Source: Actinoallomurus purpureus
GTDB taxonomy: Bacteria > Actinomycetota > Actinomycetes > Streptosporangiales > Streptosporangiaceae
Assembly: GCF_024055795.1 (NCBI RefSeq)
Contig: NZ_JAMXMY010000004.1
Coordinates: forward strand, 248,001 to 312,000
Length of the DNA: 64,000 bases
Direction: 5' to 3'
Shown here: piece after piece, positions 16,637 through 37,035 of the stretch
Layout: each line of letters opens with the position of its first letter
How positions within the stretch are numbered: position 1 is the first letter of the stretch
The notes under the pieces: model-generated
What the model was told of the DNA's origin: nothing
Seen by the model: the letters and a program-made list of their open reading frames with translations, nothing else
The model's database searches: none
Made by a program: the position numbers and the translations under genes

Positions 16637-17358
16637 GCTCCAAGCCGGGTCATGCGGGCGGCGACCTTGTCACTCGTGGGGGCGTCCATCGCGTCGGCGA
16701 TGCGGCCGTCGGCGAGGAACAGCACGGTGTCGGCGTACGACGCGGCGACCGGGTCGTGGGTGACCATGACGACGGTCTGTCCCATGCCGTCCACCGTCTC
16801 GCGCAGCAGGGCGAGCACCTCGCGGGCGGTCATCGTGTCGAGCGCCCCGGTGGGCTCGTCCCCGAAGACGACCTCCGGCCGGGTCACGAGGGCACGCGCG
16901 ATCGCCACGCGCTGCTGCTGTCCGCCGGACAGCTGGGCCGGCCGGTGCCCGACGCGCTCCGCCAGCCCGACCCGCGCGACGATCTCCGTCAGCCACGCGC
17001 GGTCCGCCTTCGTACGGGACAGCCGCAGCGGAAGGGTGATGTTCTGCTCCACCGTCAGCGACGAGACGAGGTTGAACGCCTGGAACACGAACCCGACCCG
17101 CCGGCGCCGCAGCTCCGTCAGCCGTGTCTCGTTCATCCCCGACAGCTCGGTCCCGCCGAGCCGTACGGTGCCGGACGTCGGGGTGTCCAGCCCGGCGGCG
17201 CAGTGCAGGAACGTGCTCTTGCCCGACCCGGACGGCCCCATCACCGCCGTGAACCGGCCGCGCGGAATGCCGACCGACACCTCCCGGAGCGCGGCGACCG
17301 CGCTCCTGCCCTTCCCGTACACCTTGCTCACCGCGTTCATCATCACGACGTCATCCAT
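16627..17358 (-). CDS. MacB-type ABC transporter ATP-binding protein
   Basis: A 243-residue ATPase with Walker A GPSGSGKST, Q-loop VFQAFNL, signature LSGGQQQR, Walker B VVFGDEPTGALD and switch histidine in VTHDP. This is the LolD/MacB subfamily, the usual partner of FtsX-like permeases. ATG 17358 begins MDDVVMMNAVSKVYG; the A-loop tyrosine is in KVYG. It is the first gene of a two-gene operon read leftward, and a divergent response regulator starts 108 bp away. Confidence 0.92.
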   Translation of the reverse strand: MDDVVMMNAVSKVYGKGRSAVAALREVSVGIPRGRFTAVMGPSGSGKSTFLHCAAGLDTPTSGTVRLGGTELSGMNETRLTELRRRRVGFVFQAFNLVSSLTVEQNITLPLRLSRTKADRAWLTEIVARVGLAERVGHRPAQLSGGQQQRVAIARALVTRPEVVFGDEPTGALDTMTAREVLALLRETVDGMGQTVVMVTHDPVAASYADTVLFLADGRIADAMDAPTSDKVAARMTRLGAWN

Positions 17359-17466
17359 GCCGACAAGTCTCGTGAGCTGGGGTTTTCCGGGCCAGAGACG
17401 TGATCACGAGCCAACCGTGATCTCGTCATGGTCAGGCCCGTGACGGGTCCTGGTACACATGACCCT

Positions 17467-18072
17467 GTGATCAAGGTGTTGCTGGCCGATGACCACCACG
17501 TGGTCCGCGGCGCCCTGGCCGCGCTGCTGTCCCTGGAGCCGGACCTCGAGGTGGTGGCGGAGGTGGACCGCGGCGACCAGGTGCTGCCGGCCGTGCTGCG
17601 GCACCGCCCGGACGTCGCGGTGCTGGACATCGACATGCCCGGTGCCGACGGCCTGACCGCGGCCGCCGCCGTGCACGAGGCGCACCCGGAGTGCCGGACG
17701 CTGATCCTGACCGGGCACGGCAAGCCCGGTCACCTGCGCCGGGCACTGACCGCGCACGCCGGCGGGTTCCTGCTGAAGACCGCGCCGCCGGACGAGCTGG
17801 TCGCGGGGATCCGGACGGTCGCCGCGGGACGGCGCGTGCTCGACCCGAGCCTCGCCCTCACCGCGTGGGACCTCGCCGACAACCCCCTCACTCCACGCGA
17901 GACGGACGTGCTGCGGCTGGCCGCCGAGGGCGCCGAGGCGACCGAGATCGCCGAGCGGCTCCACCTGTCGGCCGGGACCGTACGGAACTACCTGACGGCC
18001 GTCGTCGACAAGCTGGGCGCCCGCAACCGCACCGACGCCGCCCGCATCGCGACGGAGGCGGGCTGGATCTGA
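17467..18072 (+). CDS. NarL/LuxR-family response regulator (pair 1)
   Basis: A 201-residue regulator. The receiver domain (residues 1-120) shows the acidic pair ADDHH, the phospho-acceptor region VAVLDIDMPG, Thr in LILTG and Lys in FLLKTAP. The LuxR helix-turn-helix follows (LTPRETDVLRLAAEGAEATEIAERL). GTG 17467 starts the receiver and matches the paralogue at 29510, which is also 201 residues. It lies between the divergent MacB-type operon, its likely target, and a convergent histidine kinase, its likely sensor. Several positions match the paralogue (RGALxALL, RRALTA). Confidence 0.9.
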   Translation: MIKVLLADDHHVVRGALAALLSLEPDLEVVAEVDRGDQVLPAVLRHRPDVAVLDIDMPGADGLTAAAAVHEAHPECRTLILTGHGKPGHLRRALTAHAGGFLLKTAPPDELVAGIRTVAAGRRVLDPSLALTAWDLADNPLTPRETDVLRLAAEGAEATEIAERLHLSAGTVRNYLTAVVDKLGARNRTDAARIATEAGWI

Positions 18073-18230: not shown

Positions 18231-18292
18231 GTTGACTTTGGGATGGTCGCCCTTTGGAGCCCCACCCGAGCGGCGATTTTCCCAAAGTCAAC
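18231..18292. repeat. 13-bp perfect inverted repeat at the regulator/kinase junction
   Basis: GTTGACTTTGGGA at 18231-18243 is matched by its exact reverse complement at 18280-18292, 36 bp away. The right arm covers the stop codon of the histidine kinase. It sits between two convergent genes, so a bidirectional terminator or RNA-stability hairpin is the simplest reading. The 36-nt loop is long, and the arms could instead mark the ends of an inserted segment. Confidence 0.6.
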
Positions 18293-20612
18293 GGGGGCTC
18301 CGGCGATCAGGCCGGGTCAGGCCAGGCCGAGCCAGGTCAGGCCGGGCCGGGTCAGGCCGGGCCGGGTCAGGCCGGGCCGGGTCAGGCCGGGCCGGGTCAG
18401 GCCGGGCCGGGTCAGGCCGGGTCAGGCCGGGCCGGGCCGGGCCTGCGCTCGTACGCGGGGGCTGCAGGCGGGCCTGGAGCCGGAAACCGCCGTCGCCGTC
18501 GGCGCGCGCGGTGAGGGTGCCGTCGGCCGCGGCCAGCCGGGTGGTGAGGTTGCCGATGCCCGCGCCCGGCGGGGTGCGCCGGGCACGCGGGTCGAGTCCG
18601 TCGTTCTCCACGGTCAGGGTCACGACGCCCGGCTCGCTCGCCGTGGTGATGACGCAGTGCCGCGCCGCGCTGTGCCGCAGCACGTTGGTCACCGCCTCCC
18701 GCAGCACCGTGCTCAGCACGGTCGACGTCGGGGCCGGCAACGGGCCGTGACCGAGTTCGATCCGGGTCTCGACCCCCGCGGCGGCCAGCACGGAACGGGC
18801 GGACTCGATCTCGCTCTCCAGTGACATCTCCGGCTCGCCGGCGCCCGAGGCGGTGCGCAGGTCGGCACGAGCCCGCTCGGCCATCGCGACGACCTCGGTG
18901 AGCTCGGCCCGCGCCCGTACCGGGTCGGCCTCGGCGAGCCGCCGGGCCAGCTCGCACTTGAGCAGGATCGCCGCGAGGCTGTGCCCGAGCAGGTCGTGCA
19001 GGTCGCGTGCCGCCCGGAGGCGCTCCTGGACGGTCGCCGTCCTGGCCAGTTCCTCACCGGCCGCGCGCAGGTCGCGCACCAGCCCGGCGAGGCGTACGAG
19101 GCCGTACACCACCAGGCCCGTGACGAGCGTGCTCACGGTGTAGTTGACGATCCGCGCCGGGCTCTGCGACAGCGCCGCCGCCATCGCCCCGGTGCCCGCC
19201 ATCGTCGCGGCCACGAGCGGCGCCCCGATCCGGATCGGCAGGGCCACGAGGAACGTGCCCGCGAGGAAGCCCATGGCGCCGATCCAGGTCGCACCGAACC
19301 ACAGGACCGGGACGAGACTGAGCAGCGCCTGCGCGGCGATCAGCGCGTACCGGTGGCGCGGCCGGTCGTCGACCGCCCAGCGCAGCTGCAGGCCCGCGAT
19401 GAGGGCCATCCCGACGACGGCCGCGGCCAGGTTCGCGCCCCAGGGGAGCTGGAGGAGCGCCTTCACGCAGAAGCCCGCCACCACCACCGCGAGGAGGGTC
19501 ACGGACAGGCCGTACGCCGTGCGGTCGGGCAGCACGACCGGTCGCGGTGTGGCCGCTATCGTCGCCTCCACCGCGAACCGGCCGTCGGCGCCGAGGCCCG
19601 TGGTCAGCGTGCCTCCGGCCGCCTCGACCCGCGCGGCGGCATCCGCCAGGCCCTCCTCGCCGCGCGCGGCCGTGGGCGGGCCGTCGTTGCTCACCCGGAG
19701 CCGGACCCTCCCGTCCCGCTCGGAGGTCTCGATGACGCAGCGGGTCGCGGTGCCCTGGCGGACGACCTCGGTGACGGCCTCGCGGAGCACGGTGGCCAGC
19801 AGCGCACCCGCCGAGCCGAGCGGTTCCTCGTGCCCGGTGCGCACCTCCGCCTCGATCCCGGCCGCCGCCAGCAGCGCCCGCGCGGCCGCCGCCTCGGGCG
19901 CGAGCGACATGGCGCGGAAGCCTGCGGCCGCCGCCCGCGCGTCGGCCAGCGAACGGCGGGCCACGCGCAGGACCTCGCCGATCTCCTCGGGGTGGTCGAG
20001 GGCACGACGGCTCCCCACCGTGATGGCGTCCAGGCCGCGGCCGATGCCGGTGTTCAGCTCGTCGGCGATGCGCAGCCGCTCGCGGGAGACGGCCGCAATC
20101 GTCAGCGCCGGCCGGGCCGCGGCCAGGTCGGCGACCCGGTCGGCCAGCCGTACGAGGCCGTACACGACCAGGGCGCCGAGGACCGGCGTGATCGCGGCGT
20201 CGGCCGCGGCCGCCGCACCCGGAACCCGCAGGACCGCGATGACCGCCGCGCTCGCCAGCACCGCGAGTGCGGGTAGCGCGTACGAGGTCAGCAGCAGCGT
20301 CCCGGCGGCGAACGCGAGGATCCCGACGGACGTGCCGAACGCGAGCACGTCGAGGCCCGCCAGCAGCGCCTGGACGGTCGCGAGCGCGACGCCGCGGAAC
20401 CTCGCCGCGCGGGGCAGCACCCAGGCGAGCAGCGGAGCGAACACGAGCACCGTGAGCGCCACCGCGCCGGCGGTGCGCGCGGTCCCGCCCGTCCGGAACG
20501 GCGCGGCCAGGACGTACACACCGGCGAACGCGGCGAGGACGACCACGACGATCAACCGGGCCAGGCCCGGACCGGGCGCCGACCCGTCGTACGACGGGCG
20601 CTGCTGGGACAA
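18288..20612 (-). CDS. Tandem double sensor histidine kinase with inactive first module (pair 1)
   Basis: A 774-residue membrane kinase made of two NarX/DesK-like modules. Module 1: about five membrane segments (20-165), then a HisKA_3-like helix in which the phospho-acceptor histidine is Asn (ADELNTGIG, N187), and an ATPase domain whose N-box asparagine is Glu (REAVTEV). Module 2: further segments (365-510), an intact RDLHDLLGHSL (H539), N-box REAVTNVLRHS and G-box GIGNLTTR. Module 1 is therefore predicted to be catalytically dead. A Pro/Arg-rich (RPDPA)n tail follows. TTG 20612 is chosen for its GGAGG four bases upstream. It converges on the response regulator at 17467. Confidence 0.88.
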   Translation of the reverse strand: MSQQRPSYDGSAPGPGLARLIVVVVLAAFAGVYVLAAPFRTGGTARTAGAVALTVLVFAPLLAWVLPRAARFRGVALATVQALLAGLDVLAFGTSVGILAFAAGTLLLTSYALPALAVLASAAVIAVLRVPGAAAAADAAITPVLGALVVYGLVRLADRVADLAAARPALTIAAVSRERLRIADELNTGIGRGLDAITVGSRRALDHPEEIGEVLRVARRSLADARAAAAGFRAMSLAPEAAAARALLAAAGIEAEVRTGHEEPLGSAGALLATVLREAVTEVVRQGTATRCVIETSERDGRVRLRVSNDGPPTAARGEEGLADAAARVEAAGGTLTTGLGADGRFAVEATIAATPRPVVLPDRTAYGLSVTLLAVVVAGFCVKALLQLPWGANLAAAVVGMALIAGLQLRWAVDDRPRHRYALIAAQALLSLVPVLWFGATWIGAMGFLAGTFLVALPIRIGAPLVAATMAGTGAMAAALSQSPARIVNYTVSTLVTGLVVYGLVRLAGLVRDLRAAGEELARTATVQERLRAARDLHDLLGHSLAAILLKCELARRLAEADPVRARAELTEVVAMAERARADLRTASGAGEPEMSLESEIESARSVLAAAGVETRIELGHGPLPAPTSTVLSTVLREAVTNVLRHSAARHCVITTASEPGVVTLTVENDGLDPRARRTPPGAGIGNLTTRLAAADGTLTARADGDGGFRLQARLQPPRTSAGPARPGLTRPDPARPDPARPDPARPDPARPDPARPDLARPGLTRPDRRSPR
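18341..18425 (-). repeat. 15-bp tandem repeat encoding a (RPDPA)n tail
   Basis: Five perfect copies of GCCGGGCCGGGTCAG at 18341-18415, then a 10-bp partial copy, with degenerate copies on both sides. On the minus strand the array encodes repeated RPDPA at the C-terminus of the histidine kinase. The unit is a multiple of three, so copy-number change would alter tail length without shifting the frame. Confidence 0.9.
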
Positions 20613-20729
20613 CCGTCCTCCGATCCCCCGGATCCGGCGTGGGCAGCCCCGATCCTCGCAGATCACCGCCCGCGCGTCGGCACCGTCCGCCGCCCACCGG
20701 CGGGAGATCTGACGTCGGGTGAGGCGAGC

Positions 20730-21506
20730 TCAGGCGTCGCGGAGCCGAAGCGCGAGTCCGCCGCTCACGAGCGCTGCGGCGGTCCATGCGGCGAGCACCC
20801 CCAGGCCCGGCCAGGGGCCCAGGGGCAGGCTGGGGAGATCGGTGGTGGCCTGGATGGCGAGTCCGGCGTTCGCCGGGGAGATCTGCCACAGGTGCCGCTG
20901 CCAGTGCGGGTCGGGGGTCAGGCTGATGATGACGGGGAGGAGGTAGAGCAGGCCGAGCACGGTCCCGATCGCCGCGGCAGCGTCCCGTACGGCGGTGGCG
21001 ATGCCGAGGCTGAGCAGGGCGATCAGCGCGAGATAAAGCACCGAGCCGACGGCCGCGCGCAGTGTCGGCTCGTCGGCCAGGGACAGTGGCGGGTAGCCGT
21101 GGGCGCGGGTGAAGCCGTGGCCGGGCAGGATGAGGCGCCCGGCCAGCAGGGACGCGAGGACGGCGATGATCCCGGTCGCCAGCGTGAGCCCGGTGAGGAT
21201 GCCCGCCTTGGCGGCGAGGACGGTGACCCGGCGCGGCATCGCGGTGAGGGTGGTCCGGATCATGCCGCTGCCGTACTCGCCGCTGATCGTCAGCACGGCG
21301 AGGGCGGCGACGACCGCCTGGCCCAGCTGAACTCCGAAGAGGCTCAGCTTGGTGGGGTCGTGGCCGCAACCCGCCTGGGTGCAGGACACGGTCGTGCCCG
21401 CCGCGCCGCTCACGGCGACGGTCAGCGCGACGATCGCGAGCAGCACCCAGCCGGTACCCGGCGCGGTGCGCAGCTTCGTCCACTCCGCGTGCAGTTCCCG
21501 TTTCAT
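20730..21506 (-). CDS. ABC-2 type permease, small subunit (block 1)
   Basis: A 258-residue permease with the N-terminus MKRELHAEWTKLRT and about six membrane segments, including SGEYGSGMIRTTL, the conserved ABC-2 loop. AAGGAGGG precedes ATG 21506. It is the last gene of a three-gene operon (ATPase, large permease, small permease). It is closely similar along its length to the small permease at 36256-37032 and has the same gene order, so the two operons are paralogous. An in-frame upstream ATG in the SER-repeat could add a short leader. Confidence 0.87.
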   Translation of the reverse strand: MKRELHAEWTKLRTAPGTGWVLLAIVALTVAVSGAAGTTVSCTQAGCGHDPTKLSLFGVQLGQAVVAALAVLTISGEYGSGMIRTTLTAMPRRVTVLAAKAGILTGLTLATGIIAVLASLLAGRLILPGHGFTRAHGYPPLSLADEPTLRAAVGSVLYLALIALLSLGIATAVRDAAAAIGTVLGLLYLLPVIISLTPDPHWQRHLWQISPANAGLAIQATTDLPSLPLGPWPGLGVLAAWTAAALVSGGLALRLRDA

Positions 21507-21577
21507 GAGCCCTCCTTCGTCGGGGGGGGTGACCCGAGTTGCTGTGCTCATGATTCACTCGCTCCGCTCACTCATGA
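21507..21577 (-). repeat. Single copy of the SER-type coupling unit
   Basis: The interval between the large and small permease genes holds one copy of the unit that is tripled at 37036-37242. It carries an ATG overlapping the large-permease stop, then ATGAGTGAGCGGAGCGAGTG, and an AAGGAGGG before the next gene. Here the short reading frame stops after six codons, and a second ATG is in frame with the small permease. Confidence 0.7.
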
Positions 21578-23146
21578 GCCCCTCCGGCGCAGTCGATGGG
21601 CGGCCAGGCCGAGGGCGAGCGCGGCGTACGCGCAGAGCACGGCGAACCCGGCCCAGGGCGCCAGCGGGTAGTAGCCGGCCGACGGCGCGTAGTTCCCGAT
21701 CACCTGCTTGTATGCCGGGACGCTCTGCTGAATCGCGAAACCCGCGGCGGGCGTCAGTCGCAACAGCCATCGCGTCACGTCATCGGGCAGGACGGAGGCG
21801 AAGGCGAGGACGTACGGGACGACGATCACCGCGATCGCGGTGATGATCGCCGCAACGCTGCGCCGGAACAGGGCGCCGAGGGCGAGGGCGAGGACGGCGG
21901 CGACGGCGAGCAGCGCCGCGGTTCCGACGATGACGCGCAGCTCGGTGAGCGAGGACACGGGGAACGGGAATTCGCCGCCCCGGCGCAGGATTCGCGTGCC
22001 GGACGGGACGGTGATCGCGGTGGCGGCCACCCCTGCGACGAAGGACACCAGGCCGATCACGACGGCCTTCGCCGCCAGCATCCGCCCTCGTCGCGGGCTG
22101 GCGATCAGGGTGGTGTGGATCAGGCCTCGCCGGTACTCGGCGGTCATGAACATCACGGCCACCACGATCATCACGATCAGCCCGGCGAGCATGCCGATGA
22201 GGGTGCGTTCGATGGGCGACCCGTCGGTCCGCGGCGCGATGTCGCCGTCTCCGGTCACCGTGTATCCGCCGCCGGACTCCCGGACCCCGCTCGGGCGGTG
22301 ATAACGCTCCCAGTCGGTCTGCCCGTGGGCTCCGATCTCATCGCGGCTCCACTGGCCGCCGGGCGTCGTTCCCCGCAGACCGACGTGGTCGAAGACGGCG
22401 GTGGCCTGGGTGTAGCGGGCCTGCCCGACGCTCCCGCCGAGCGCGCTCTGCTCGACCGTCAGGTCGTTCGGGGAGGCGACGAAGAGCCCGATCTGGACCG
22501 TGGCCGGCAGGCGCGGCAGGTGCGTCGTGCCGACCTGGGTCCACTGCGTTCCGTCGGCCGACTCGTACCCGGTGAGCGTGTCGCCGGAGCGGTTCAGCCG
22601 GAGCCAGCGGGGGGCAGCCGCCGAGACGCGGCCCGGACGGCCCGCGGTGTCGTGGGTGTAGTCGTACTGCATGCGTACGCCGTGGTCGGCGGTGACCATC
22701 ATGGCCGCGTACGCCGATCCCTGCCGGGTGCCGTCCTTGACGATGACCCCGGCCTTCGCCCACGGCACCAGGCCGGAGACGATCTTGTCGTGGTTGGGCG
22801 GGGGGTAGGTGATGATGCCGGTCATCGAGGTCAGGCGGACGGTGATGCCGCCGTCGCCGGTCAGGGACTGGTGGACGAAGTAGAACCGGTCGTCCACCAA
22901 TTCGCCGCCCGGCCCCGTCGGAGGAGTGGGACAGGCGACCTCGACCGTGCCGTTGCCGCACGAGGAGTGGCTGCCGGTCGCGAAGATCAGCCCGAAGGAC
23001 ACGATGACCACGGCCGCCGCCGTCATGGCGAGCACCCAGCCGCGGACCGTACGGAACTTGGTCCACTCCGCGCGCAGCAGCTGCGGAAACCCGGCGCGTC
23101 CGGGCCGCCGTCGCGAACGGTACGGGGTCGTTGTGCCGGTGGTCAT
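21572..23146 (-). CDS. ABC-2 type permease, large subunit with extracellular laminin-G-like insert (block 1)
   Basis: A 524-residue permease. An N-terminal segment follows LLRAEWTKFRTVRGW; a long extracytoplasmic region of about 250 residues resembles a concanavalin/laminin-G-like fold (GVRMQYDYTHDTAGRPG, PRWLRLNRSGDTLTGYESADG), then five or six membrane segments with TAEYRRGLIHTTL. The insert could bind a ligand or peptidoglycan outside the cell. ATG 23146 overlaps the ATPase stop by four bases. A paralogue lies at 37235-38797. Confidence 0.87.
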   Translation of the reverse strand: MTTGTTTPYRSRRRPGRAGFPQLLRAEWTKFRTVRGWVLAMTAAAVVIVSFGLIFATGSHSSCGNGTVEVACPTPPTGPGGELVDDRFYFVHQSLTGDGGITVRLTSMTGIITYPPPNHDKIVSGLVPWAKAGVIVKDGTRQGSAYAAMMVTADHGVRMQYDYTHDTAGRPGRVSAAAPRWLRLNRSGDTLTGYESADGTQWTQVGTTHLPRLPATVQIGLFVASPNDLTVEQSALGGSVGQARYTQATAVFDHVGLRGTTPGGQWSRDEIGAHGQTDWERYHRPSGVRESGGGYTVTGDGDIAPRTDGSPIERTLIGMLAGLIVMIVVAVMFMTAEYRRGLIHTTLIASPRRGRMLAAKAVVIGLVSFVAGVAATAITVPSGTRILRRGGEFPFPVSSLTELRVIVGTAALLAVAAVLALALGALFRRSVAAIITAIAVIVVPYVLAFASVLPDDVTRWLLRLTPAAGFAIQQSVPAYKQVIGNYAPSAGYYPLAPWAGFAVLCAYAALALGLAAHRLRRRGS

Positions 23147-24072
23147 CGGGCCGCCTCCGGCCCTGGGGCGGCGAACTGGACCGCGTCTCGGGTGAGGTCC
23201 ATGTAGGCCTCCTCCAGCGTCGCGCGGTGGGCCGTCACCTCCGAAAACGGCACGGCGCGCGCGCCGAGGGCCGCGACGATGTGCTCCGCCGCCAGGCCGG
23301 AGACGGTGAGGGTGTCCCGGTCGGTCGCGGCCACGGTGGCGCCGGCGTGCGCCAGCGCGGTCATCGCCTCGGACCGCGCCGTGGTGCGCAGCGTGACCCG
23401 GTCCCGTGACGCGGCCGCTATCAGGTCGGCGACGCTCGCGTCGGCGAGGACCCTGCCGCGGCCCACCACCACGATATGGCCCGCGATGTCCTGGAGTTCG
23501 CTCATCAGGTGACTGGACACGAGTACGGCACGGCCCTCGGTTGCCAGCGACCGCAGGAAGCCGCGGATCCACACGATGCCGTCGAGGTCCAGGCCGTTGA
23601 ACGGCTCGTCGAGCATGAGCACCGGCGGATCGCCGAGCAGCGCCGCGGCGATGCCGAGCCGTTGCCGCATGCCGAGGGAGTAGCCGCCCGCCCTGCGCCG
23701 CTTCGCGGTGCGCAGCCCGACCTGCTCGATCACCTCATCGACCCGCCTGGCGGTCAGGCCCTGGGAGTGCGCCAGCCACAACAGATGGTTTCGGGCGGTA
23801 CGGCTCGGCTGCAGGGCGGCGGCGTCCAGCAGCGCCCCGACGTGGCTCAGCGGGTTCCGCAGGCTCCAGAACGGTCGCCCACCGACCAGCGCGCGCCCCT
23901 CGTCGGCCGCGTCCAGGCCGAGGACCACCCGCATCGTTGTGGACTTGCCCGCGCCGTTGGGGCCGACGAAGCCGGTGACCTGCCCGGGCCTGACGGTGAA
24001 GGACATCCCGTCCAGCGCCACGGTCGAGCCGAAGCGCTTACGCAGCCCGGAGACCTCGATGGTTGCTTCCAT
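23143..24072 (-). CDS. ABC transporter ATP-binding protein (block 1)
   Basis: A 309-residue ATPase of the drug/antibiotic exporter type. Walker A GPNGAGKST, signature YSLGMRQRL, Walker B VLMLDEPFNGLD and the H-loop SSHLMSEL are present, followed by a C-terminal domain of about 90 residues. The signature S-x-G-M-R-Q-R is typical of DrrA/CcmA-like exporters of antibiotics. It is the first gene of the operon; a divergent histidine kinase/response regulator pair starts about 100 bp away and is its probable controller. Confidence 0.92.
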   Translation of the reverse strand: MEATIEVSGLRKRFGSTVALDGMSFTVRPGQVTGFVGPNGAGKSTTMRVVLGLDAADEGRALVGGRPFWSLRNPLSHVGALLDAAALQPSRTARNHLLWLAHSQGLTARRVDEVIEQVGLRTAKRRRAGGYSLGMRQRLGIAAALLGDPPVLMLDEPFNGLDLDGIVWIRGFLRSLATEGRAVLVSSHLMSELQDIAGHIVVVGRGRVLADASVADLIAAASRDRVTLRTTARSEAMTALAHAGATVAATDRDTLTVSGLAAEHIVAALGARAVPFSEVTAHRATLEEAYMDLTRDAVQFAAPGPEAAR

Positions 24073-24198
24073 GTCACGGCAGGTTAGGCAGCGAACGGGC
24101 CGCGGTCGTCGCGCCTGAGAACGAACTTCACCGTCGCTGGCACCAGGGATGTCCAGTCCCTCACGCGAGGGATGTCACGACCCCGGACGCCCGTCACA

Positions 24199-25431
24199 AT
24201 GGCCTTCGTGGATCGGGCGTACGAGCGGCGCGGCGGGTGGGTCGGCGCGGGACGGCGGCTCGCCACGGGCCCGCACGCGTCGATCGTGGCCGGCGGCGCG
24301 GCGGCGCTGCTCGCGGTGGCCGAGTCGATCGCGCACGCCGGGAACACACCGTCGGCCGGAAGTACCGGGACTGCTCTGTACTTCGTGATCCTTCCGCTGC
24401 TCGGGCTGGCCACCACGCTGCCGCTAGCCCTTCTGTGGGACCAGCCGGCCGCGGCCGCCCTGGTCATCACCGGGACGATCGTGCTGTCACTGGTGGCCTT
24501 CCAGACGATGACCGTGGCGGCCCTGGCCACGCAGCTACTCACCGCGTACCGGTTCGGCCGCAGCGGCCCGCCGGCGCCGGCCGTATGCGCCGCCGCGCCG
24601 TTCCCGGTGCTCGCGCTGGCCCACCCGGCAGGCGGCGAGGCGGGGGTTCTCACGCTGCTGCTGGCCTCGCTGGCTCCGGCGGCCGTCATGGCCGGGATCG
24701 CACGGCACGCGCACGCTGAGGCCGCCGAGAACAGAGCCGCCCGGCAGGTCATCGCCGAGACCCTGCTGGAGAACACGGCGCGCGGTGAACGCGCACGCAT
24801 CGCCCGCGAACTCCACGACGTCGTCGCCCACCACATTTCCATGGTCGCCGTGCAGGCGGAGACTGCACGGCTGGCCACGCCGGGGATGCCGCCCGCCGGC
24901 GCCGAGCGGCTGTCCGCCATCGGCGACACCGCACGGGCGGCGCTGACCGAGATGCGACGGCTGCTCGGCGTCCTGCGAGACGACACGGCCGCTACGGACG
25001 ACACAACCGCCGCGGCCGCCGACCGGAAGCCCCAGCCCGGCCTGCGCGAGCTCAACGAGCTGCTCGACAGGTCACGGGAGGTGTCCAAGGCAACCACCCG
25101 CCTCATCCTCCGCAGCCCGCCGTTCGCGCTCGATCCCGGCGTCGAACTCGCGGCCTACCGCATCGTCCAGGAAGCCCTCACCAACGCCCGGCGGCACGCG
25201 CCGGGCGCCGCCGTCGACGTGGAGCTGGACTACACCGACGACGCCCTGCGGCTTCGCATCCGCGACAACGGACCCGGCCTCTCCGCCGCCGCGCCGACCG
25301 GCGGTCACGGGTTGTCCGGCATGCGAGAACGCGCCGGGGCGGTCGGTGGCGAACTGCGCGCGGGCCCCGCCGCGGGCGGCGGCTTCCTCATCGAGGCCCG
25401 CCTTCCCGGAAAGGACGAGACGGCCGCATGA
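24199..25431 (+). CDS. Sensor histidine kinase, HisKA_3 type (block 1)
   Basis: A 410-residue kinase with about five to six N-terminal membrane segments (residues 25-165), the dimerisation helix RARIARELHDVVAHHISM with phospho-acceptor H206, and a C-terminal ATPase domain (N-box EALTNARRHA, G1 DNGPGL, G2 GHGLSGMRERA). The start is uncertain: ATG 24172 lies in frame upstream but has no usable ribosome site. The response regulator overlaps its stop by four bases. Divergent orientation to the ABC operon suggests it senses that exporter's substrate. Confidence 0.88.
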   Translation: MAFVDRAYERRGGWVGAGRRLATGPHASIVAGGAAALLAVAESIAHAGNTPSAGSTGTALYFVILPLLGLATTLPLALLWDQPAAAALVITGTIVLSLVAFQTMTVAALATQLLTAYRFGRSGPPAPAVCAAAPFPVLALAHPAGGEAGVLTLLLASLAPAAVMAGIARHAHAEAAENRAARQVIAETLLENTARGERARIARELHDVVAHHISMVAVQAETARLATPGMPPAGAERLSAIGDTARAALTEMRRLLGVLRDDTAATDDTTAAAADRKPQPGLRELNELLDRSREVSKATTRLILRSPPFALDPGVELAAYRIVQEALTNARRHAPGAAVDVELDYTDDALRLRIRDNGPGLSAAAPTGGHGLSGMRERAGAVGGELRAGPAAGGGFLIEARLPGKDETAA

Positions 25432-26120
25432 ACGCTCCCTCCCCGGCGGTCCGGATCGTCGTCGCCGACGACCACCCCGTGGTCCGCACCGGATTCGCCG
25501 ATCTGCTCGATACCCAGCCGGACTTCATCGTCGTCGGCACCGTCTCTGATGGGGCCGAGGCGCTGCGGACGTGCCGCGAGCTGTCGCCTGACGTCGTCCT
25601 CATGGACGTGCGCATGCCGGGCATGGACGGCATCGAGGCCACCCGGCAGCTCGCCGGCGCCGACTCGACCGGCCCTCGCATCCTCATCCTGACGACCTTC
25701 GACCTGGACGAGTACGTCTACGACGCGTTGCGCGCCGGAGCCAGCGGATTCCTCCTCAAGGACGTCACCGCCGAACGGCTCTTCGACGCGGTACGTATCA
25801 TCGCCGCCGGTGAAGCGCTGCTCGCCCCGACCGTCACCCGTCGCCTCATCAGCGATTTCGCCCTCATGCGCCCCAAGCCCGACGCACCGTCCACCGCCAC
25901 ACTCGCCGCCCTCACCCCGCGAGAGACACAGGTCCTGCGGCTCGTCGCCGAGGGACTGTCCAACCCCGAGATAGCCGCCCGGCTGACGGTCACGGAGGAA
26001 ACCGTGAAAACCCACGTGAGCCGCATGCTGAACAAACTCGGCCTCCGCGATCGCACCCAGGCCGTCATAGCCGCGTACGAAACAGGCCTGATCGTCCCAC
26101 GCTCCCGCGGCCCCCACTGA
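25428..26120 (+). CDS. NarL/LuxR-family response regulator (block 1)
   Basis: A 230-residue regulator. Receiver domain: acidic ADDHP, phospho-acceptor D in VVLMDVRMPG, Thr in LILTTF, Lys in FLLKDV. A LuxR helix-turn-helix covers about residues 160-225 (LTPRETQVLRLVAEGLSNPEIAARL, TVKTHVSRMLNKLGL). It is translationally coupled to the kinase (ATGA) and probably activates the divergent ABC operon. Confidence 0.93.
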   Translation: MNAPSPAVRIVVADDHPVVRTGFADLLDTQPDFIVVGTVSDGAEALRTCRELSPDVVLMDVRMPGMDGIEATRQLAGADSTGPRILILTTFDLDEYVYDALRAGASGFLLKDVTAERLFDAVRIIAAGEALLAPTVTRRLISDFALMRPKPDAPSTATLAALTPRETQVLRLVAEGLSNPEIAARLTVTEETVKTHVSRMLNKLGLRDRTQAVIAAYETGLIVPRSRGPH

Positions 26121-26148
26121 TTCTTCTGCTCCGCCCAGGCGCCGTCGG

Positions 26149-27390
26149 TCAGGCGGTGGCGAGGGCGGTGGTGGGCGACAGCCGGGCGGCGCGGATGGCC
26201 GGGTACAGACCCGCCACCACACCGATGAGCAGCGTCGCCCCCATCCCGCCGGCGGTCGCCCACGCCGGCACCACCGCCTCCCAGGACTGCGTCGCGGCGT
26301 ACACGGTCGTCACGCCGATGCCGACGACGACGCCGCCCGCGCCCCCGAGCGCCGACAGCAGCAGGGACTCGGCCAGGAACTGCAGCAGGATGTGGCGGCG
26401 GGTCGCGCCCAGGGAACGGCGCAGTCCGATCTCCGCCCGGCGTTCCAGGACGGAGATGACCATGGTGTTGGCCACCCCGACCCCGCCGACGAGGAGGGCC
26501 ACCGCTCCCAGGCCGAGCAGCAGGCCGGTGAAGGCGCGATCGGTGGCCTGGCGCGCGGCCAGCGCGTCCGACGGCCGGGACACCTTCACCTCGTTGGGCG
26601 CCTGCGGGTTCGCGGTCGCCGCGAGGACCGCCTGGACGGCCTCGACGGCGGAGTCCTTCGTGCGGGTGTAGACGGTCGTCGGATGCCCGTCGAACCCGAG
26701 ATGGGCCGTCGCGGCGGACCAGCCGACCAGCGCCGCGGAGTCCAACTCCGGGGCGAGGGCCACCGGGGCGAGGAGTCCGACGACGGTGAACCACCGGCCG
26801 CCGAGGTAGACCTGGACGTCCGGACCTGCGGCGCCGATCCCCAGCCGCCGCGCCGCCGTCGAGCCGAGCACCACCGCCGGGTAGCGGGCGGTCGCCGCGT
26901 TGAGCCAGGCGCCGTCTGCCAGGGTCGCGCGGACGGCCCGCGGAAGGTCGAGGGAGGAGGCCAGGACGGCGAGGCCACCGCTCTCCTCGGCGGGGATCCG
27001 GTCGCTGCGGTAGACCTTCGCGTCGGGCACCGTGCCGGTGGCGGTGACCTGCTCGACCGGGCCGATCCGGCGGATCATCGCGACGGACTCGGCAGGGAGC
27101 GTGGCCGTCCCGCCCGCCAGGGTGTTCCCGGGCGCGACCGTCAGCAGGTTCGTGCCGAGCGCGGCGAGCCTGCGGTCCAGATCGGCGCGGCTGGACGACG
27201 AGATGCCGACCACGGAGATCATCGCGGCGATGCCGATCGCGATGCCGAGTGCCGACAGGAACACCCGCAGGGGCCGCGTCCGCAGGCCCGCCCCTCCGAC
27301 GCGCGCCACGTCCCTGGGCCGCAGCCGCGAGGGCGGCGGCTCGGTCGGCGACGCCGGTTCGGGCGACGTGCTCACCGTGGGCGTGCTCAT
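26149..27390 (-). CDS. MacB-type FtsX permease
   Basis: A 413-residue permease with the classic four-segment MacB layout: segment 1 near 45-65 (RVFLSALGIAIGIAAMISVV), a large extracytoplasmic domain (70-285), and three segments near 290-405 with NTMVISVLERRAEIGLRRSLGA. It overlaps its ATPase by four bases. The adaptor gene that should complete this exporter is reduced to a fragment, so function is doubtful. Confidence 0.88.
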   Translation of the reverse strand: MSTPTVSTSPEPASPTEPPPSRLRPRDVARVGGAGLRTRPLRVFLSALGIAIGIAAMISVVGISSSSRADLDRRLAALGTNLLTVAPGNTLAGGTATLPAESVAMIRRIGPVEQVTATGTVPDAKVYRSDRIPAEESGGLAVLASSLDLPRAVRATLADGAWLNAATARYPAVVLGSTAARRLGIGAAGPDVQVYLGGRWFTVVGLLAPVALAPELDSAALVGWSAATAHLGFDGHPTTVYTRTKDSAVEAVQAVLAATANPQAPNEVKVSRPSDALAARQATDRAFTGLLLGLGAVALLVGGVGVANTMVISVLERRAEIGLRRSLGATRRHILLQFLAESLLLSALGGAGGVVVGIGVTTVYAATQSWEAVVPAWATAGGMGATLLIGVVAGLYPAIRAARLSPTTALATA

Positions 27391-27980
27391 CGGACGACCT
27401 CCCCGTCGCGCATCGCGACCTGCCGGGGCAACCCCGCCGCGATGTCCCGGTCGTGGGTGATGACGACGACCGACGTCCCGGCGGAGTGCAGATCCCGTAG
27501 GAGCTCCATCACCCCGGCGCCTGACGCCGAATCCAGGCTGCCGGTCGGTTCGTCGGCCAGCAGCAGGGCCGGTTCGCCGACGACGGCGCGGGCGATGGCC
27601 ACCCGCTGCCGTTCGCCGCCGGACATCTCGTGCGGCAGATGGCCGAGCCGGTCGCCGAGACCGACGCGGACGAGAGTCTCCGCCGCACGGTCCCGGCGTT
27701 CACGCACCGGGGCCCCCGTGTAGAGCAGCCCGTCCGCGACGTTGTCCACCGCGGTCCGGCCCGGGGCAAGGTGGAACTGCTGGAACACGAACCCGATCCG
27801 GTGCGCCCGCAGCGCCGACAGCCGACGGTCGGAGAGCCTCGCGACGTCGTGTCCCTCGACGCGGACCGTGCCCGCCGACGGCCGGTCGAGCGTGCCGATG
27901 AGGTGCAGCATCGTGGACTTGCCCGAGCCGGAGGGCCCAACGATGGCGAGCATCTCCCCGGCCTCGACGGACAGCGTCAC
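27387..27980 (-). CDS. MacB-type ABC ATPase, 5' end frameshifted
   Basis: The 197-residue frame has Walker A GPSGSGKST, Q-loop VFQQFHL, signature MSGGERQR, Walker B LLLADEPTGSLD and THD, but lacks the first strand and the A-loop tyrosine. The missing start lies upstream in another frame: from GTG 28048 one reads VTAVVELDAVTKEYPG, which then shifts near 28001-28006 in a CCCGGGCGGG run. One missing base explains it. The upstream frame stops at a TGA that overlaps GTG 27980, so re-initiation is possible. The cause may be a real mutation or a sequencing error. Confidence 0.8.
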   Translation of the reverse strand: MTLSVEAGEMLAIVGPSGSGKSTMLHLIGTLDRPSAGTVRVEGHDVARLSDRRLSALRAHRIGFVFQQFHLAPGRTAVDNVADGLLYTGAPVRERRDRAAETLVRVGLGDRLGHLPHEMSGGERQRVAIARAVVGEPALLLADEPTGSLDSASGAGVMELLRDLHSAGTSVVVITHDRDIAAGLPRQVAMRDGEVVR

Positions 27981-28044
27981 GCCGCGCAGCGCGACGACCC
28001 GCCCGGGTACTCCTTGGTGACGGCGTCCAGCTCCACGACCGCGG

Positions 28045-28212
28045 TCACGACGGCATCCCGACCGTCATGCCGGGGGTGAGGCCGCCGCCCGACACCTCGA
28101 CCCGGCCATCGGCGAACAGTCCGGTCTCCACCGGCACGATCCGGGTGGACGCGCCGGTCACGACCTGCACCCCGTACCCGCCCTCGGACAGGGCGAGCAG
28201 CGCACCCCCGTA
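28045..28212 (-). pseudogene. MacA/HlyD-like adaptor, C-terminal remnant
   Basis: Only the last 55 or so residues of a periplasmic adaptor remain: ALLALSEGGYGVQVV, then TRIVPVETGLFADGRVEVSG and LTPGMTVGMPS, the standard C-terminus of membrane-fusion proteins paired with MacB exporters. Its stop overlaps the expected ATPase start. The upstream coding sequence is replaced at about 28205-28215 by the opposite-strand end of a histidine kinase, indicating a deletion junction. Confidence 0.75.
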
Positions 28213-28402
28213 CGAGGTCGCGGGCCTGTTCGAGCCGTTTCGCCGGCTCGGCGCCGAGCGGCTCTCCTCAGCCGCGCCCGGTGCCGGGCTCGGCCTGTCG
28301 ATCGTCCGGTCGGTGGCCCGTGCGCACGGCGGTGACGTACGGGCCGAACCACGGGACGGGGGCGGCCTCGTCGTCACCGTGGTCCTGCCCGGCGTCGGGT
28401 GA
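28211..28402 (+). pseudogene. Histidine kinase, C-terminal ATPase remnant
   Basis: The last 63 residues of an EnvZ/BaeS-type kinase: VAGLFEPFRRLGAER, the G2 box GAGLGLSIVRSVARAHGG and GGGLVVTVVLP. The dimerisation helix and sensor are missing. It abuts the adaptor remnant on the other strand within about 10 bp, so both genes were probably fused by one deletion. No cognate response regulator remains. Confidence 0.75.
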
Positions 28403-28415
28403 GGCCCCGACGGTC

Positions 28416-29300
28416 TCACCGCGCGGTGTCCTCCGGGAGCCAGGCCATCGGGTCCCGGCCCGCGACGACCGTGCTGGTGAGGGTGCCGACCTCGGCGATC
28501 GTGATGGCGATCTCGTCGCCGGCGGCCAGGGTGAAGGGCAGGTCCGGGACCAGGCACGTGCCGGTGGCGAGGAGGGCACCGTCCGGGAACGCGTCCGCAC
28601 GGAACAGGTACCCGACGAGGTCGTCCAGCCTGCGGTGCAGCTGCTCGGTGCTCGCCGTCCCCGTCCACGTGACCGCACCCGCCCGGCGGATGGTCAGCTC
28701 GATGTCCAGGGCGTACGGGTCCGGCACCTCCCAGGCGGGTCGTATGCCGGGACCCGCCGCGCAACCGCCGAGGTAGATCTTGGCCTGCGGGAGATACAGT
28801 GGGTTCTCCCCCTCGATGGTCCGCGAGCTCATGTCATTGACGACGGTGTACCCGACGATCTCGGCATGCCGGTTGAGTACGAGGCCCAGCTCCGGTTCGG
28901 GGACGTCGACGGTGGAGTCGTCCCGGATCGCGACCGTCTCGCCGTCGCCGGTCACCCGCCAGGCCGCGGACTTGAAGAACAGCTCGGGGCGCGCGGCGTC
29001 GTAGACCCGCTCGTACACGTCGGCGGACCGCTCGCTCTCGGTGACCCGCGCCTCGCGGGACCGCCGATAGGTGACGCCCGCGGCCCAGACCTCCATCCGT
29101 CCGTCCACGGGGGGCAGCGGCCGTACCGCGGCGGCGTCATGGCGCGGTCCGTCCGCCGCGAGACACCGGTCGCGCAGCTCGGCCACGGGGAGGCGGAGCA
29201 GCTCGCCGAGGGTCCCGGCCAGTTCGGTGATGGTCGACCCGTCGGAGACGCCCACCAGCGGACGGCCACCATCGCTCGGCACGAAACGGACAATGTGCAC
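28416..29300 (-). CDS. Fumarylacetoacetate hydrolase family protein
   Basis: A 294-residue protein of the FAH/2-hydroxyhepta-2,4-diene isomerase superfamily, which cleaves or isomerises beta-diketo acids with a divalent metal. Metal and active-site features are visible: a glutamate pair in VPEPELGLVLN, TVVNDMSSR, YLPQAKIYLGG and GDEIAITI. GTG 29300 is used, with GAGGGA upstream. The nearest homologues of this layout act on sugar-acid or aromatic breakdown products; the substrate is not known. No catabolic genes are adjacent. Confidence 0.87.
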   Translation of the reverse strand: MHIVRFVPSDGGRPLVGVSDGSTITELAGTLGELLRLPVAELRDRCLAADGPRHDAAAVRPLPPVDGRMEVWAAGVTYRRSREARVTESERSADVYERVYDAARPELFFKSAAWRVTGDGETVAIRDDSTVDVPEPELGLVLNRHAEIVGYTVVNDMSSRTIEGENPLYLPQAKIYLGGCAAGPGIRPAWEVPDPYALDIELTIRRAGAVTWTGTASTEQLHRRLDDLVGYLFRADAFPDGALLATGTCLVPDLPFTLAAGDEIAITIAEVGTLTSTVVAGRDPMAWLPEDTAR

Positions 29301-29371
29301 GCGATCCCTCGTCTCACGTCGATTACACCGTCCCAGCAACGTAGGCAGGCGCACATGGAGCATTAGAGCAG

Positions 29372-29421
29372 TGATCGTCGAGGGTTTTGGTAGCTGGAAC
29401 GCCGAAAACCCTCGACGATCA
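29372..29421. repeat. Palindromic intergenic element, copy A
   Basis: A perfect 17-bp inverted repeat (TGATCGTCGAGGGTTTT and its complement) with a 16-nt loop containing GCTGGA. It lies between the divergent FAH gene and response regulator. The same element occurs at 36120-36169, sharing TTAGAnCAG before and GATCATGAAGGGC at its end, and a related one at 62742-62783. Confidence 0.85.
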
Positions 29422-29509
29422 TGAAGGGCTGACGATCGACCTGTACGACGCGGTCGCCTGGCAGGATGGCGTCCTGGGACCCCTGCGCGGACTTATCGGG
29501 GAGTGTGGC

Positions 29510-30115
29510 GTGATCCGGGTACTCCTGGCCGAGGACATGCATCTCATCCGCGGCGCCCTGATCGCGCTGCTCGATCTGGAACCCGACATCGAGGTGGTCG
29601 CGGAGGTGTCCAGGGGTGATGCCGTGCTCCCGGCCGCGCTCGAGCACCGGCCGGACGTCGCGGTGCTGGACGTCGACATGCCGGGTGTCGACGGGCTCAC
29701 GGCGGCCACCGAGCTCGCCGCCCGCCTGCCGGACTGTCGCGCGCTGATCCTCACGGCGCTCGGCCGCCCCGAGATCCTGCGCCGGGCCCTGACCGCGCAG
29801 GTCCGGGGCTTCATGGTGAAGGACTCCCCGCCCGCCGAGCTGGCGGAGGCGATCCGCCAGGTGGCCGCCGGGGAGCTGGTGATCGACCCCCGGCTGGCCG
29901 CGGCGGCGATCAGGGCGCGGCCGAACCCGCTGACGGCGCGGGAGGTAGAGCTGCTGCGGCTGGCCGCGGAGGGCGCCGAGGTCTCGGAGATCGCCTCGCG
30001 GCTCCACCTGACCAAGGGCACCGTGCGGAACTACCTAGGGGCGATCGTCACCAAGCTCGACGCCCGCAACCGCATCGACGCGGTCCGCATCGCCACCGAG
30101 GCCGACTGGCTGTAG
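29510..30115 (+). CDS. NarL/LuxR-family response regulator (pair 2)
   Basis: A 201-residue paralogue of the regulator at 17467. Receiver: LLAEDMHLIRGALIALL, phospho-acceptor region VAVLDVDMPG, LILTAL and FMVKDSP; helix-turn-helix LTAREVELLRLAAEGAEVSEIASRL. GTG 29510 follows GGGAG. Its last 81 bp overlap the 3' end of the convergent kinase gene. The presence of the same length, same convergent kinase layout and shared motifs indicates duplication with pair 1. No ABC operon is directly attached to this copy. Confidence 0.9.
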   Translation: MIRVLLAEDMHLIRGALIALLDLEPDIEVVAEVSRGDAVLPAALEHRPDVAVLDVDMPGVDGLTAATELAARLPDCRALILTALGRPEILRRALTAQVRGFMVKDSPPAELAEAIRQVAAGELVIDPRLAAAAIRARPNPLTAREVELLRLAAEGAEVSEIASRLHLTKGTVRNYLGAIVTKLDARNRIDAVRIATEADWL

Positions 30116-31762
30116 GACCAAGAGCTCGTACTCCTCCCCCGGGCGCGGGCCGGCCGTGAGCCGGCCGCCCATCGCCGCCACGCGTTCGGTGAGGTTCCCG
30201 ACCCCCTGCCCGCTCGTACCCACCCCGGCCTGGGGCACGCCGTCGTTGGTGGCGCGCAGACGGGCCGTGCCGTCGGCGACGGCCACCTCCACGGAGCAGG
30301 TCCGGGCCCGGCTGTGCCGCAGGACGTTGGTGACCGCCTCGCGCAGCACGGTCGCCAGCACGGCGTCGACCGGTCCCGGAAGGCCGTCGGCGGACGCGTC
30401 GACGCGTACGGTGATCCCCGCGGCGGTGAGCACGTCGTGCGCCGAGGCGAGCTCCGCGCTGAGGGACATCCGCGGGTCGTCGCCCGGGATGGCACGCAGG
30501 TCGCCCAGGGCCCGGCGGGCGGTCAGCGCGATGTCGGCAAGCTCGCGTTCGGCCCGGAGGGGATCCCGCGCGGCCAGCTCGGCCTTGACGATGATGGCGG
30601 ACAGGCCGTACCCGAGCAGGTCGTGTACGTCCCGGGCGATCCGCCGCCGCTCGCGGGCCAGGGCCACCGTGGCGAGCGCCAGGCGCGCCTCCCGTACCTC
30701 GTGGACGAACCCGGTGAGCAGGGCCAGCCCGTAGAAGATCAACGCGATGGTCACCGTGTCGACCGTCAGGGACGCGGTCTGTCCCGGGGAGACGGACCGG
30801 GCGAGCAGGACGGCGGGGACGCTCAGGACGACGGTCCCGAACAGCGGCCATGCCAGGCGTCCGCCGATGATGATCAGGATGGATCCCGCGGCGAAGCCGA
30901 CCATCCGGGGCTCGGGCCCGCCCGGGGTCAGGAGCGGCAGGCAGGCGAGCGCGGTCTGGACGGATAGCGTCCAGCCGGCGTGGCGGGGCCGTACGCCGGG
31001 CGGGCGCGGCAGGCAGTGGTAGACGGACAGCGCGATGATGACGGCGAGGGCGCCCAGACCGGCGGCGAGCAGGGGGGCGGGCGGAGACGCGTCCCACAGC
31101 GAGATCGCGCCGACGGCCAGGAACTCCAGGTACGCGACGACGACGATCGGCAGCGCGAGCCTGGGCGTCAGGTCGGTGGGCGGCGGCTCGGTGGGGGCGA
31201 CGGGCGTGGTCCGGACGCGCGCCGCGGTATCGCGGGCCAGGCTCAGGATCTCCTGGATCCGCCTCTGCGCGGCGAGGTCGACGATCTCCGAGAGGGCCGA
31301 TCCCAGCGCGGCGTCCAGGTCGCGGGAGAACCGCTCGCGTTCGCCCGCGACCGACTCCGCGGCCAGTTCGCCGCGGGCGGCGCGGAGTTCGGCGCGTAGG
31401 TCGCTGAGCCTCGTGAGGCCGTAGACGGTGACCCCGATCGCCAGGGCGTTGCCCATGGCGTTGGCGCAGGCGTAGACGTCGCCGAGGTTCATGAGCCCGG
31501 CGGCGGCCACGACTGCGCCGAGCAGCGCCCAGCGGATCCGTCCCCTGACGATGAGCAGCACGGAGGCGGCGAGGAAGCCCGGCGGCCCGGTCCAGGGGAA
31601 GAGCACGGCCTGGGCGGCGAGGGTCCACCGGCCACGGAACCGCTTCGTCCCCGGGAGGCAGTGGAGGACCTGCAGGGCGAGCATCAGAACCGCCGGAACG
31701 CTCGGGTGGATCAGCCACGGGTCCACGGCCAGGCCGACGAGGACCACGAGGATGATCACCAC
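30035..31762 (-). CDS. Tandem double sensor histidine kinase, reduced first module (pair 2)
   Basis: A 575-residue membrane kinase. Module 1: membrane segments (1-115) and a kinase helix ERERFSRDLDAALGSAL in which histidine is Asp (D150); its ATPase domain is gone. Module 2: segments (205-350), an intact ERRRIARDVHDLLGYGLSAI (H380), N-box REAVTNVLRHS and G-box GQGVGNLTERV. The C-terminal 27 residues (about LGGDADRVDAVAGVELGDD) are encoded antisense to the response regulator, suggesting loss of the original stop. It resembles the 774-residue kinase at 18288-20612, with further decay of module 1. Confidence 0.87.
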   Translation of the reverse strand: MVIILVVLVGLAVDPWLIHPSVPAVLMLALQVLHCLPGTKRFRGRWTLAAQAVLFPWTGPPGFLAASVLLIVRGRIRWALLGAVVAAAGLMNLGDVYACANAMGNALAIGVTVYGLTRLSDLRAELRAARGELAAESVAGERERFSRDLDAALGSALSEIVDLAAQRRIQEILSLARDTAARVRTTPVAPTEPPPTDLTPRLALPIVVVAYLEFLAVGAISLWDASPPAPLLAAGLGALAVIIALSVYHCLPRPPGVRPRHAGWTLSVQTALACLPLLTPGGPEPRMVGFAAGSILIIIGGRLAWPLFGTVVLSVPAVLLARSVSPGQTASLTVDTVTIALIFYGLALLTGFVHEVREARLALATVALARERRRIARDVHDLLGYGLSAIIVKAELAARDPLRAERELADIALTARRALGDLRAIPGDDPRMSLSAELASAHDVLTAAGITVRVDASADGLPGPVDAVLATVLREAVTNVLRHSRARTCSVEVAVADGTARLRATNDGVPQAGVGTSGQGVGNLTERVAAMGGRLTAGPRPGEEYELLVLQPVGLGGDADRVDAVAGVELGDDRP

Positions 31763-37032: not shown

Positions 37033-37035
37033 GGG

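Follow-up and report, generated by a model that had tools for sequence, protein, structure and literature searches.

Two genes on the minus strand of the window (the whole stretch of 64,000 nucleotides of Actinoallomurus purpureus DNA analyzed in the current work), designated HK1 (18288-20666) and HK2 (30035-31762), are open frames that each specify a tandem histidine kinase, in which a front module without the phospho-acceptor histidine is followed by a second module that has retained it. Both kinases are of the DesK type (HisKA_3), in agreement with the original prediction. The natural reading of this arrangement would be that of an in-chain pseudokinase acting on its live neighbour. In the form which we prefer, and which we put forward tentatively as a possibility, HK1 and HK2 would be single-chain pseudo-dimers, the dead copy being the built-in partner of the live hairpin. 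The features of HK1 are as follows:

18288..20666, minus strand: HK1, tandem kinase of the DesK type; open frame of 792 aa starting at GTG 20666
20121..20564, minus strand: first membrane part of HK1, six predicted helices (hydropathy and model helices)
19929..20120, minus strand: dead hairpin of HK1 (DHp1), Asn205 in place of the acceptor (codon 20052-20054)
19554..19928, minus strand: dead ATPase-like domain of HK1 (CA1), Glu300 replacing the N-box Asn (codon 19767-19769)
19074..19553, minus strand: second membrane part of HK1, six helices by hydropathy
18465..19073, minus strand: live module of HK1 (DHp2 and CA2), His557 (18996-18998) and N-box Asn661 (18684-18686)

The frame of HK1 is open as it had been placed, but its start is the GTG at 20666, the start proposed earlier (20612) being located 18 codons inside the gene; Asn205 in the 792-aa numbering corresponds to the residue previously referred to as Asn187. 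The H-box of module 1 reads DELN and its N-box LREAVTE instead of LREAVTN, so that the ATPase-like domain with a lost N-box Asn is present as described before, and the G2 region of CA1 is lost as well. Pfam recognises only module 2 of HK1, as HisKA_3 plus HATPase_c, module 1 reaching 15.8 bits against HisKA_3 with a cut-off of 24, and Pfam-based annotation therefore hides the tandem architecture; the host genome (9.25 Mb) contains 47 HisKA_3 stretches above the cut-off. That the front module is a true, if degenerate, HisKA_3 module is borne out by a phmmer match to DesK which spans the hairpin and the ATPase domain (E = 9.3e-6), and by a score of 135 bits with an HMM built on 42 intact modules from the collected loci, HK1's own second module being among these. 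Module 2 matches DesK with E = 6.8e-21, and the live hairpins of the two proteins align without a gap.

In an AlphaFold2 model of HK1 (7 sequences; mean pLDDT 69.9, pTM 0.52), a unit of membrane helices, long hairpin and alpha/beta ATPase-like domain occurs two times in succession, which supports the presence of two complete modules and speaks to their layout rather than to their pairing. When this model was used in a Foldseek search, DesK structures ranked best. Six membrane helices precede each hairpin according to hydropathy, the second membrane part appearing in the model as five helical stretches of which one is long enough for two, and with six predicted helices per module both hairpins would face the same side of the membrane. 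The C-terminal tail of HK1 (PDPAR repeats) is encoded by a 15-bp tandem repeat of 9 copies (18307-18441), and the HK1 relative of A. spadix stops before this tail.

In order to assess the spread of HK1, its module 1 was searched in 150 genomes of the family, the best 20 candidates per genome being scored. At least 37 HK1-type matches (E up to 1.1e-42) were retrieved from at least 36 of the 150 genomes, the limit being set by us at the step from 1.1e-42 down to 2.8e-35, and together with four loci from named Actinomadura records they constitute 41 HK1-type loci. A spurious frame with no letter at either site (L076|9336) occurs in the raw tallies and is excluded from the 41, and L069 and L014 are the same locus, L069 being used for residue counts. 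The acceptor position of module 1 is occupied by Asn in 21 loci, Ser in 17, Asp in 2 and Arg in 1, and the N-box position by Glu in 21, Asp in 15, Gly in 2 and Gln, Ala or Arg in 1 each. The first copy thus possesses neither the His nor the N-box Asn of an active kinase at any of the 41 loci, its relationship being one of fold homology only, whereas module 2 carries both residues at all 40 readable loci, its acceptor His being as originally predicted. A pattern found in 41/41 loci cannot be ascribed to chance. HK1 is patchy within its genus (2/5 same-genus genomes, among the best 20 candidates per genome), and in an even sample of the class at least 7 of 296 genomes match its module 1 (E up to 1e-28; best 10 candidates per genome), all of which belong to HK1's own family and include the genome of the window.

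HK1 is accompanied by a response regulator gene and by genes for an ABC transporter:

14147..16636, minus strand: FtsX-type ABC permease, 829 aa (PF02687, two stretches)
16627..17358, minus strand: ABC transporter ATPase (PF00005), divergent from RR1
17416..17430, no strand assigned: inverted repeat CATGAC-N3-GTCATG, 2 mismatches in the window, in the divergent RR1/ABC promoter
17467..18072, plus strand: RR1, response regulator of the NarL/UhpA type; GTG start at 17467 (201 aa) in a frame that is open from 17428

RR1 converges with HK1, and a second regulator of the same length, RR2, converges with HK2, with a 3' overlap of about 80 bp, so that the predicted tail-to-tail regulator of 201 residues is found beside both kinases. 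RR1 and RR2 resemble NarL/UhpA-type regulators without reaching the thresholds of the named NCBIfam models; a NarL-type partner, as belongs to a HisKA_3/DesK-type kinase, is therefore present in each case. The tail-to-tail arrangement is conserved at 39 of the 41 HK1-type loci; kinase and regulator frames overlap in six, and about 2 kb separates them in L015 and L075. The same gene order extends to the ABC ATPase (38/41) and the FtsX-type permease (39/41), L014 having been added back for these neighbourhood counts. The exceptions are L074, which is without regulator or ABC genes, L060, which is without the regulator and has its ABC pieces reordered, and L017, which deviates in the ATPase, and at L013 (A. 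spadix) about 2 kb lies between the regulator and the ABC genes.

The inverted repeat CATGAC-N3-GTCATG is present with up to 2 mismatches in 34 of 36 shared promoters versus about 2.2 of 36 in shuffled sequences, a contrast that is descriptive, the repeat having been derived from the same promoters and the loci being related. For this analysis L060, L074, L017 and L014 were not included and L013 was dropped for its 2-kb gap, leaving 36 of the 41 promoters. In 32 of the 36, a distance of 57 or 58 bp separates the end of the repeat from the start of the ABC ATPase gene that follows it. Within the window five 2-mismatch sites occur, three of which fall in the 132 bp of the RR1/ABC promoter (17341-17472), and with up to three mismatches 33 sites were counted where 23 are expected; the repeat is therefore not special from the window alone. 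The repeat is likely to be a binding site for RR1.

The second tandem kinase and its regulator comprise the following features:

29510..30115, plus strand: RR2, response regulator of the NarL type; 201 aa if counted from its likely start, in a frame that is open from 29387
30035..31762, minus strand: HK2, tandem DesK-type kinase, 575 aa, first ATPase domain absent
31202..31402, minus strand: dead hairpin of HK2 (SRDLD), Asp150 replacing the acceptor (31313-31315)
30098..30712, minus strand: live module of HK2, His380 (30623-30625), HisKA_3 45.7 bits

The second module of HK2 is recognised by Pfam as HisKA_3 and its HATPase_c match (19.6 bits) is below the cut-off of 26.4; subject to this sub-threshold match, the second copies can be classed as HisKA_3/DesK-type kinases, for which an acceptor His and an HATPase_c domain with an N-box Asn are characteristic. 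The dead hairpin runs to the second membrane part with no ATPase domain in between, which confirms what had been proposed for the HK2 front module. By hydropathy, the first hairpin of HK2 is preceded by only three helices and the second by five. An AlphaFold2 model of HK2 was unusable (2 sequences, pLDDT 35).

A search with HK2 gave matches in 17 of the 150 family genomes at E up to 1e-60, and its relatives, apart from the kinase of the window, number nine at 51-84% identity, one of these nine being partial; the neighbouring RR2 of A. spadix is 88% identical. Where they can be read, HK2-type relatives are without a first ATPase domain and have kept the membrane part and the dead hairpin. The acceptor of the ten readable kinases (L121-L129 and L133, the window being L121) is Asp in 4, Glu in 4, Ala in 1 and Gln in 1, L130 being left out of the count as it reads out of frame ahead of module 2. 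Remoter matches of the search have Gly (L134), Gln (L136) or Arg (L139) as judged by eye, and a His letter in L131. An acidic residue thus occupies the dead acceptor site in 8/10 HK2-type kinases versus Asn or Ser in 38/41 HK1-type ones. Considering that the H188E change in DesK serves as a phospho-mimic, according to the accessible portion of PMC5231405, the dead hairpin of HK2 may, by analogy, be fixed in a phosphorylated-like shape.

In the mechanism that we propose, a self-pairing DesK-type unit, consisting of membrane helices, hairpin and ATPase domain, would have been doubled in one chain and copy 1 would have lost its acceptor His and ATP site, its membrane part and dead hairpin now acting as the built-in partner of hairpin 2. 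The textbook histidine kinase is a homodimer, and homodimerising membrane units that are doubled in one chain often pair mutually. With hairpin 1 and hairpin 2 paired inside the chain, the protein would be off as a kinase and able to act as a phosphatase, and a signal weakening this pair would cause hairpin 2 to pair with hairpin 2 of another chain. The resulting inter-chain pair would autophosphorylate and drive RR1, which in its phosphorylated form would bind the inverted repeat between the RR1 gene and the ABC transporter genes and thereby switch the transporter. The inhibitory sign of the effect of the dead module on the live one is a guess.

As to the kinase-off state, DesK is reported to be phosphorylated in trans, an engineered heterodimer with one H188V half working in vivo (PMC8301901, in the part of the text available), and together with the gapless alignment of the HK1 and DesK hairpins this would make the in-chain pair kinase-off; phosphatase activity is retained by DesK H188V (PMC5231405, same restriction). 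The dead module is taken as the in-chain partner because the dead hairpin and membrane part persist where CA1 is gone, and the absence of CA1 in some lineages makes the membrane part and hairpin, rather than the pseudo-ATPase, the more likely acting part. Against the pseudo-dimer it is to be counted that CA1 is constrained throughout the 41 HK1 loci, which suggests a role for CA1 beyond this model, and also that HK2 has unequal helix numbers and that HK1 is patchily distributed within its genus.

Nearly as likely is a stacked homodimer of two chains, in which each copy pairs with its counterpart in the other chain; copy 1 would then be an additional membrane sensor, its dead hairpin only relaying movement to copy 2. 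The span measured in hairpin 1 is 32 to 50 residues (38 loci) and is longer in one, versus 42 to 47 residues for the live hairpin in 37 of the 38 measured. A tight pair of hairpins 1 and 2 might not tolerate such variation, whereas lengths that differ between the copies, with copy 1 changing freely, are what self-pairing predicts. On the other hand, fused homodimerising copies have, as a matter of general knowledge, a very high mutual local concentration, and no observation made here demands a second chain. Trans-autophosphorylation of copy 2, as recounted for DesK in the available text of PMC8301901, would need no switch if the chains were stacked. An apparently regular spacing of the hairpin-1 lengths (32, 36, 39, 43, 46-47, 50) was discarded, the independent events being few; the value 34 does not fit it, and L084 is probably mis-anchored.

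The L069/L014 locus is absent from the hairpin-length, identity, dN/dS and per-position sets, which leaves 40 loci. Per-position entropy was determined on 40 first and 39 second modules of HK1-type loci. The dead module has retained the helix leading to the acceptor, albeit with weaker conservation than its live counterpart (mean entropy 0.50 versus 0.27), and the E-R-L at H-9 to H-7 of the dead hairpin is invariant (40/40). The later part of the second hairpin helix (0.97 dead versus 1.32 live) and the first half of the ATPase domain (0.81 versus 1.00) are more conserved in the dead module. By contrast, drift is seen at the acceptor site (1.10 dead versus 0.03 live), in the ATP lid (1.42 versus 0.92) and in the stretch after the acceptor from H+5 to H+20 (1.62 versus 0.31, with 18 to 40 of the 40 loci having a letter), which we take, from what is generally known of histidine kinases, to be the regulator-docking surface. 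Retained helices and CA1 half together with a drifted acceptor, docking stretch and lid point to a structural or allosteric task rather than to catalysis or regulator binding, and the dead module of HK1-type kinases accordingly looks, on sequence grounds, like one that has lost catalysis and regulator docking and kept a structural role.

This distribution bears on the possibility, which we regard as improbable, that the dead hairpin is a decoy or a sensor which binds the regulator, perhaps in its phosphorylated form, and reports its state to the live module. DivL of Caulobacter, which appeared at rank 32 of the Foldseek search with the HK1 model, is such a pseudo-histidine kinase turned regulator sensor (PMC4211667, in the portion available); it is conserved and has its acceptor replaced, and copy 1 likewise shows a replaced acceptor within a kept kinase fold. 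DivL is a separate protein that acts on CckA and binds DivK~P via its regulator-docking surface (PMC4211667, same portion), whereas copy 1 is in-chain and its presumed docking stretch has drifted, that of copy 2 being nearly fixed.

Still less probable, and in our estimation very unlikely, is that copy 1 represents a vestige, i.e. a decaying duplicate that owes its persistence to its membrane part alone or to chance. Several lineages are without the ATPase domain or have a hairpin of altered length, and HK1 has the patchy distribution described above, yet the mean pairwise identity of the dead ATPase domains, at 62.4%, is comparable to the 59.5% of the live ones (38 HK1-type loci, without L060, L016 and L069/L014). 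The dead hairpins (60.9%) lie in the same range, versus 73.6% for the live hairpins of these 38 loci. The front module of HK1-type kinases is thus maintained by selection. Using a simple counting method on 12 pairs, which partly share members, dN/dS was found to be 0.19 to 0.55 for CA1 and 0.13 to 0.67 for CA2; a 13th pair (L015 with L014) was left out, L014 not being in the set. Values for the dead hairpin are noisier (0.08 to 2.17), two of them exceeding 1 in very close pairs where dS is 0.02 and 0.03. A fusion or frame artefact, for which only L060 (1/41), without module 2 in the same open frame, could be cited, may be dismissed given that a single open frame spans both modules at the other 40 of the 41 loci, and this also rules out the recent artefactual fusion that had been raised as an objection beforehand.

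The statement accompanying the original prediction, that HisKA_3 kinases are single-module, does not hold, tandem HisKA_3 kinases being easily found in the sampled genomes. Further tandem frames were picked by frame length from the list of the HK1 module-1 search and are examples rather than a census. The host genome has a third tandem kinase (L117, contig 5), with Arg as acceptor and no first ATPase domain. L096, which its second module places within the HK1 clade, lacks CA1 and retains the hairpin with a Ser acceptor, so that a natural loss of CA1 has left the hairpin in place. Both modules are intact in five frames (L086, L087, L089, L090 and L094), and it is the second module that is altered in L106 (Asn acceptor, N-box Ser) and L111 (Gln acceptor, N-box kept). 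CA1-less frames number 19, and copy 1 of four of these (L095, L098, L109 and L116) has a His letter in short, weak alignments, which argues against universal acceptor loss beyond the HK1 and HK2 families. The predicted absence of His from the dead site therefore stands for HK1-type (0/41) and readable HK2-type (0/10) homologues, but not for distant tandem relatives. In L086 (4589-7123) the catalytic halves are almost identical and the membrane halves have diverged, which suggests that the catalytic part was recently duplicated or subject to gene conversion. L105 (2596-6003) consists of two adjoining kinase genes, the first with an Asn acceptor and an intact N-box and the second intact, and is possibly an unfused version of a dead/live pair.

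In a tree of modules, the first copies of HK1-type kinases form a clade of their own (support 1.0), as do the second copies (0.97, L096 being included), and the nodes joining the two are weak (0.36 to 0.83), which is compatible with one ancient tandem followed by many decays or with several fusions. It would be a wider claim, and one which we consider rather unlikely, that these proteins are self-contained pseudo-heterodimeric kinases whose output is a switch between pairing within and between chains, and that the step has been repeated, either half dying and the dead ATPase domain being lost or kept. Such kinases would span one actinobacterial family, comprising Actinoallomurus, Actinomadura, Spirillospora and kin.

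Among the entries listed by full-text literature searches, from which subscription journals were mostly outside scope and whose sources were seen in part, no recognisable tandem HisKA_3 kinase with a dead module appeared; the literature on pseudo- and double histidine kinases instead gave DivL, ChrS, RetS-GacS and TodS. RetS and GacS (Pseudomonas) are of the HisKA type and are two separate proteins, whereas HK1 is one HisKA_3 chain. TodS (Pseudomonas putida) resembles HK1 and HK2 in having two kinase modules per chain, its partner being NarL/FixJ-type and a receiver being located between its two modules; Pfam detects no receiver domain in HK1 or HK2.

What the accessible text of PMC12148439 describes for RetS-GacS is similar to the proposal made here in that one kinase pairs, through its hairpin, with the hairpin of the live kinase, and this pairing is a precedent for a kinase-off state. 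TodS is soluble and without transmembrane regions (PMC4321377, in the part available), unlike the membrane proteins HK1 and HK2, and according to excerpts of a review it is unclear which TodS kinase domain autophosphorylates (PMC8534201). DesK of Bacillus subtilis, whose partner is DesR, shares with HK1 membrane helices that lead into a HisKA_3 hairpin and an ATPase domain; it is a homodimer with one module and five helices (PMC8301901, available text), in contrast to HK1 with its two modules of six predicted helices, the first being dead. A ChrS variant of Corynebacterium glutamicum is, like copy 1, a histidine kinase without a working ATPase domain, and the gain obtained upon deletion of that domain vanished once the hairpin was also deleted. 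The same available portion of PMC9491836 presents the variant as a laboratory mutant and a separate protein that acts through HrrS, while copy 1 of HK1 is natural and in-chain, and in its two-hybrid data truncated ChrS was not shown to pair with HrrS. As far as their available texts reveal, three candidate tandem kinases were rejected, PMC11502775 concerning two separate HisKA_3 proteins, PMC7516205 two genes, and PMC4916428 a PmrB hairpin and ATPase domain (our reading of its two stretches).

A natural one-chain pair of which one half is dead, if conserved across many species, would make it possible to ask, without recourse to engineered heterodimers, which half senses and which transfers phosphate, and would offer a handle on why DesK-type kinases are asymmetric. 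Its close association with a single regulator, transporter and operator-like repeat represents a ready reporter. In mammalian membrane adenylyl cyclase the enzyme is doubled in one chain and one site is degenerate; this is an unrelated enzyme and serves as an analogy only. If the pseudo-dimer reading is true, a homodimeric kinase has become a single chain of which one half is permanently dead, as in adenylyl cyclases and transporters.

HK1- and HK2-type kinases adjoin each other in G023 (L073), and in A. spadix (L013) the order is HK2, RR2, FAA hydrolase, HK1, RR1. In the window, unlike in A. spadix, about 7.7 kb (20730-28415) divides HK1 from HK2, and this region encodes two transporters, an ABC-2 exporter and one of the MacB type, as well as an ordinary HisKA_3 kinase with its regulator. 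A tRNA call at 25210-25300, with an undefined anticodon and inside the ordinary kinase gene (24172-25431), was taken as false. Elsewhere in the window, a 69-bp direct repeat of 3.2 copies with 96% matches is located at 37029-37248, and a perfect 8-bp repeat, GATCAGGT, of 6.2 copies at 59196-59245.
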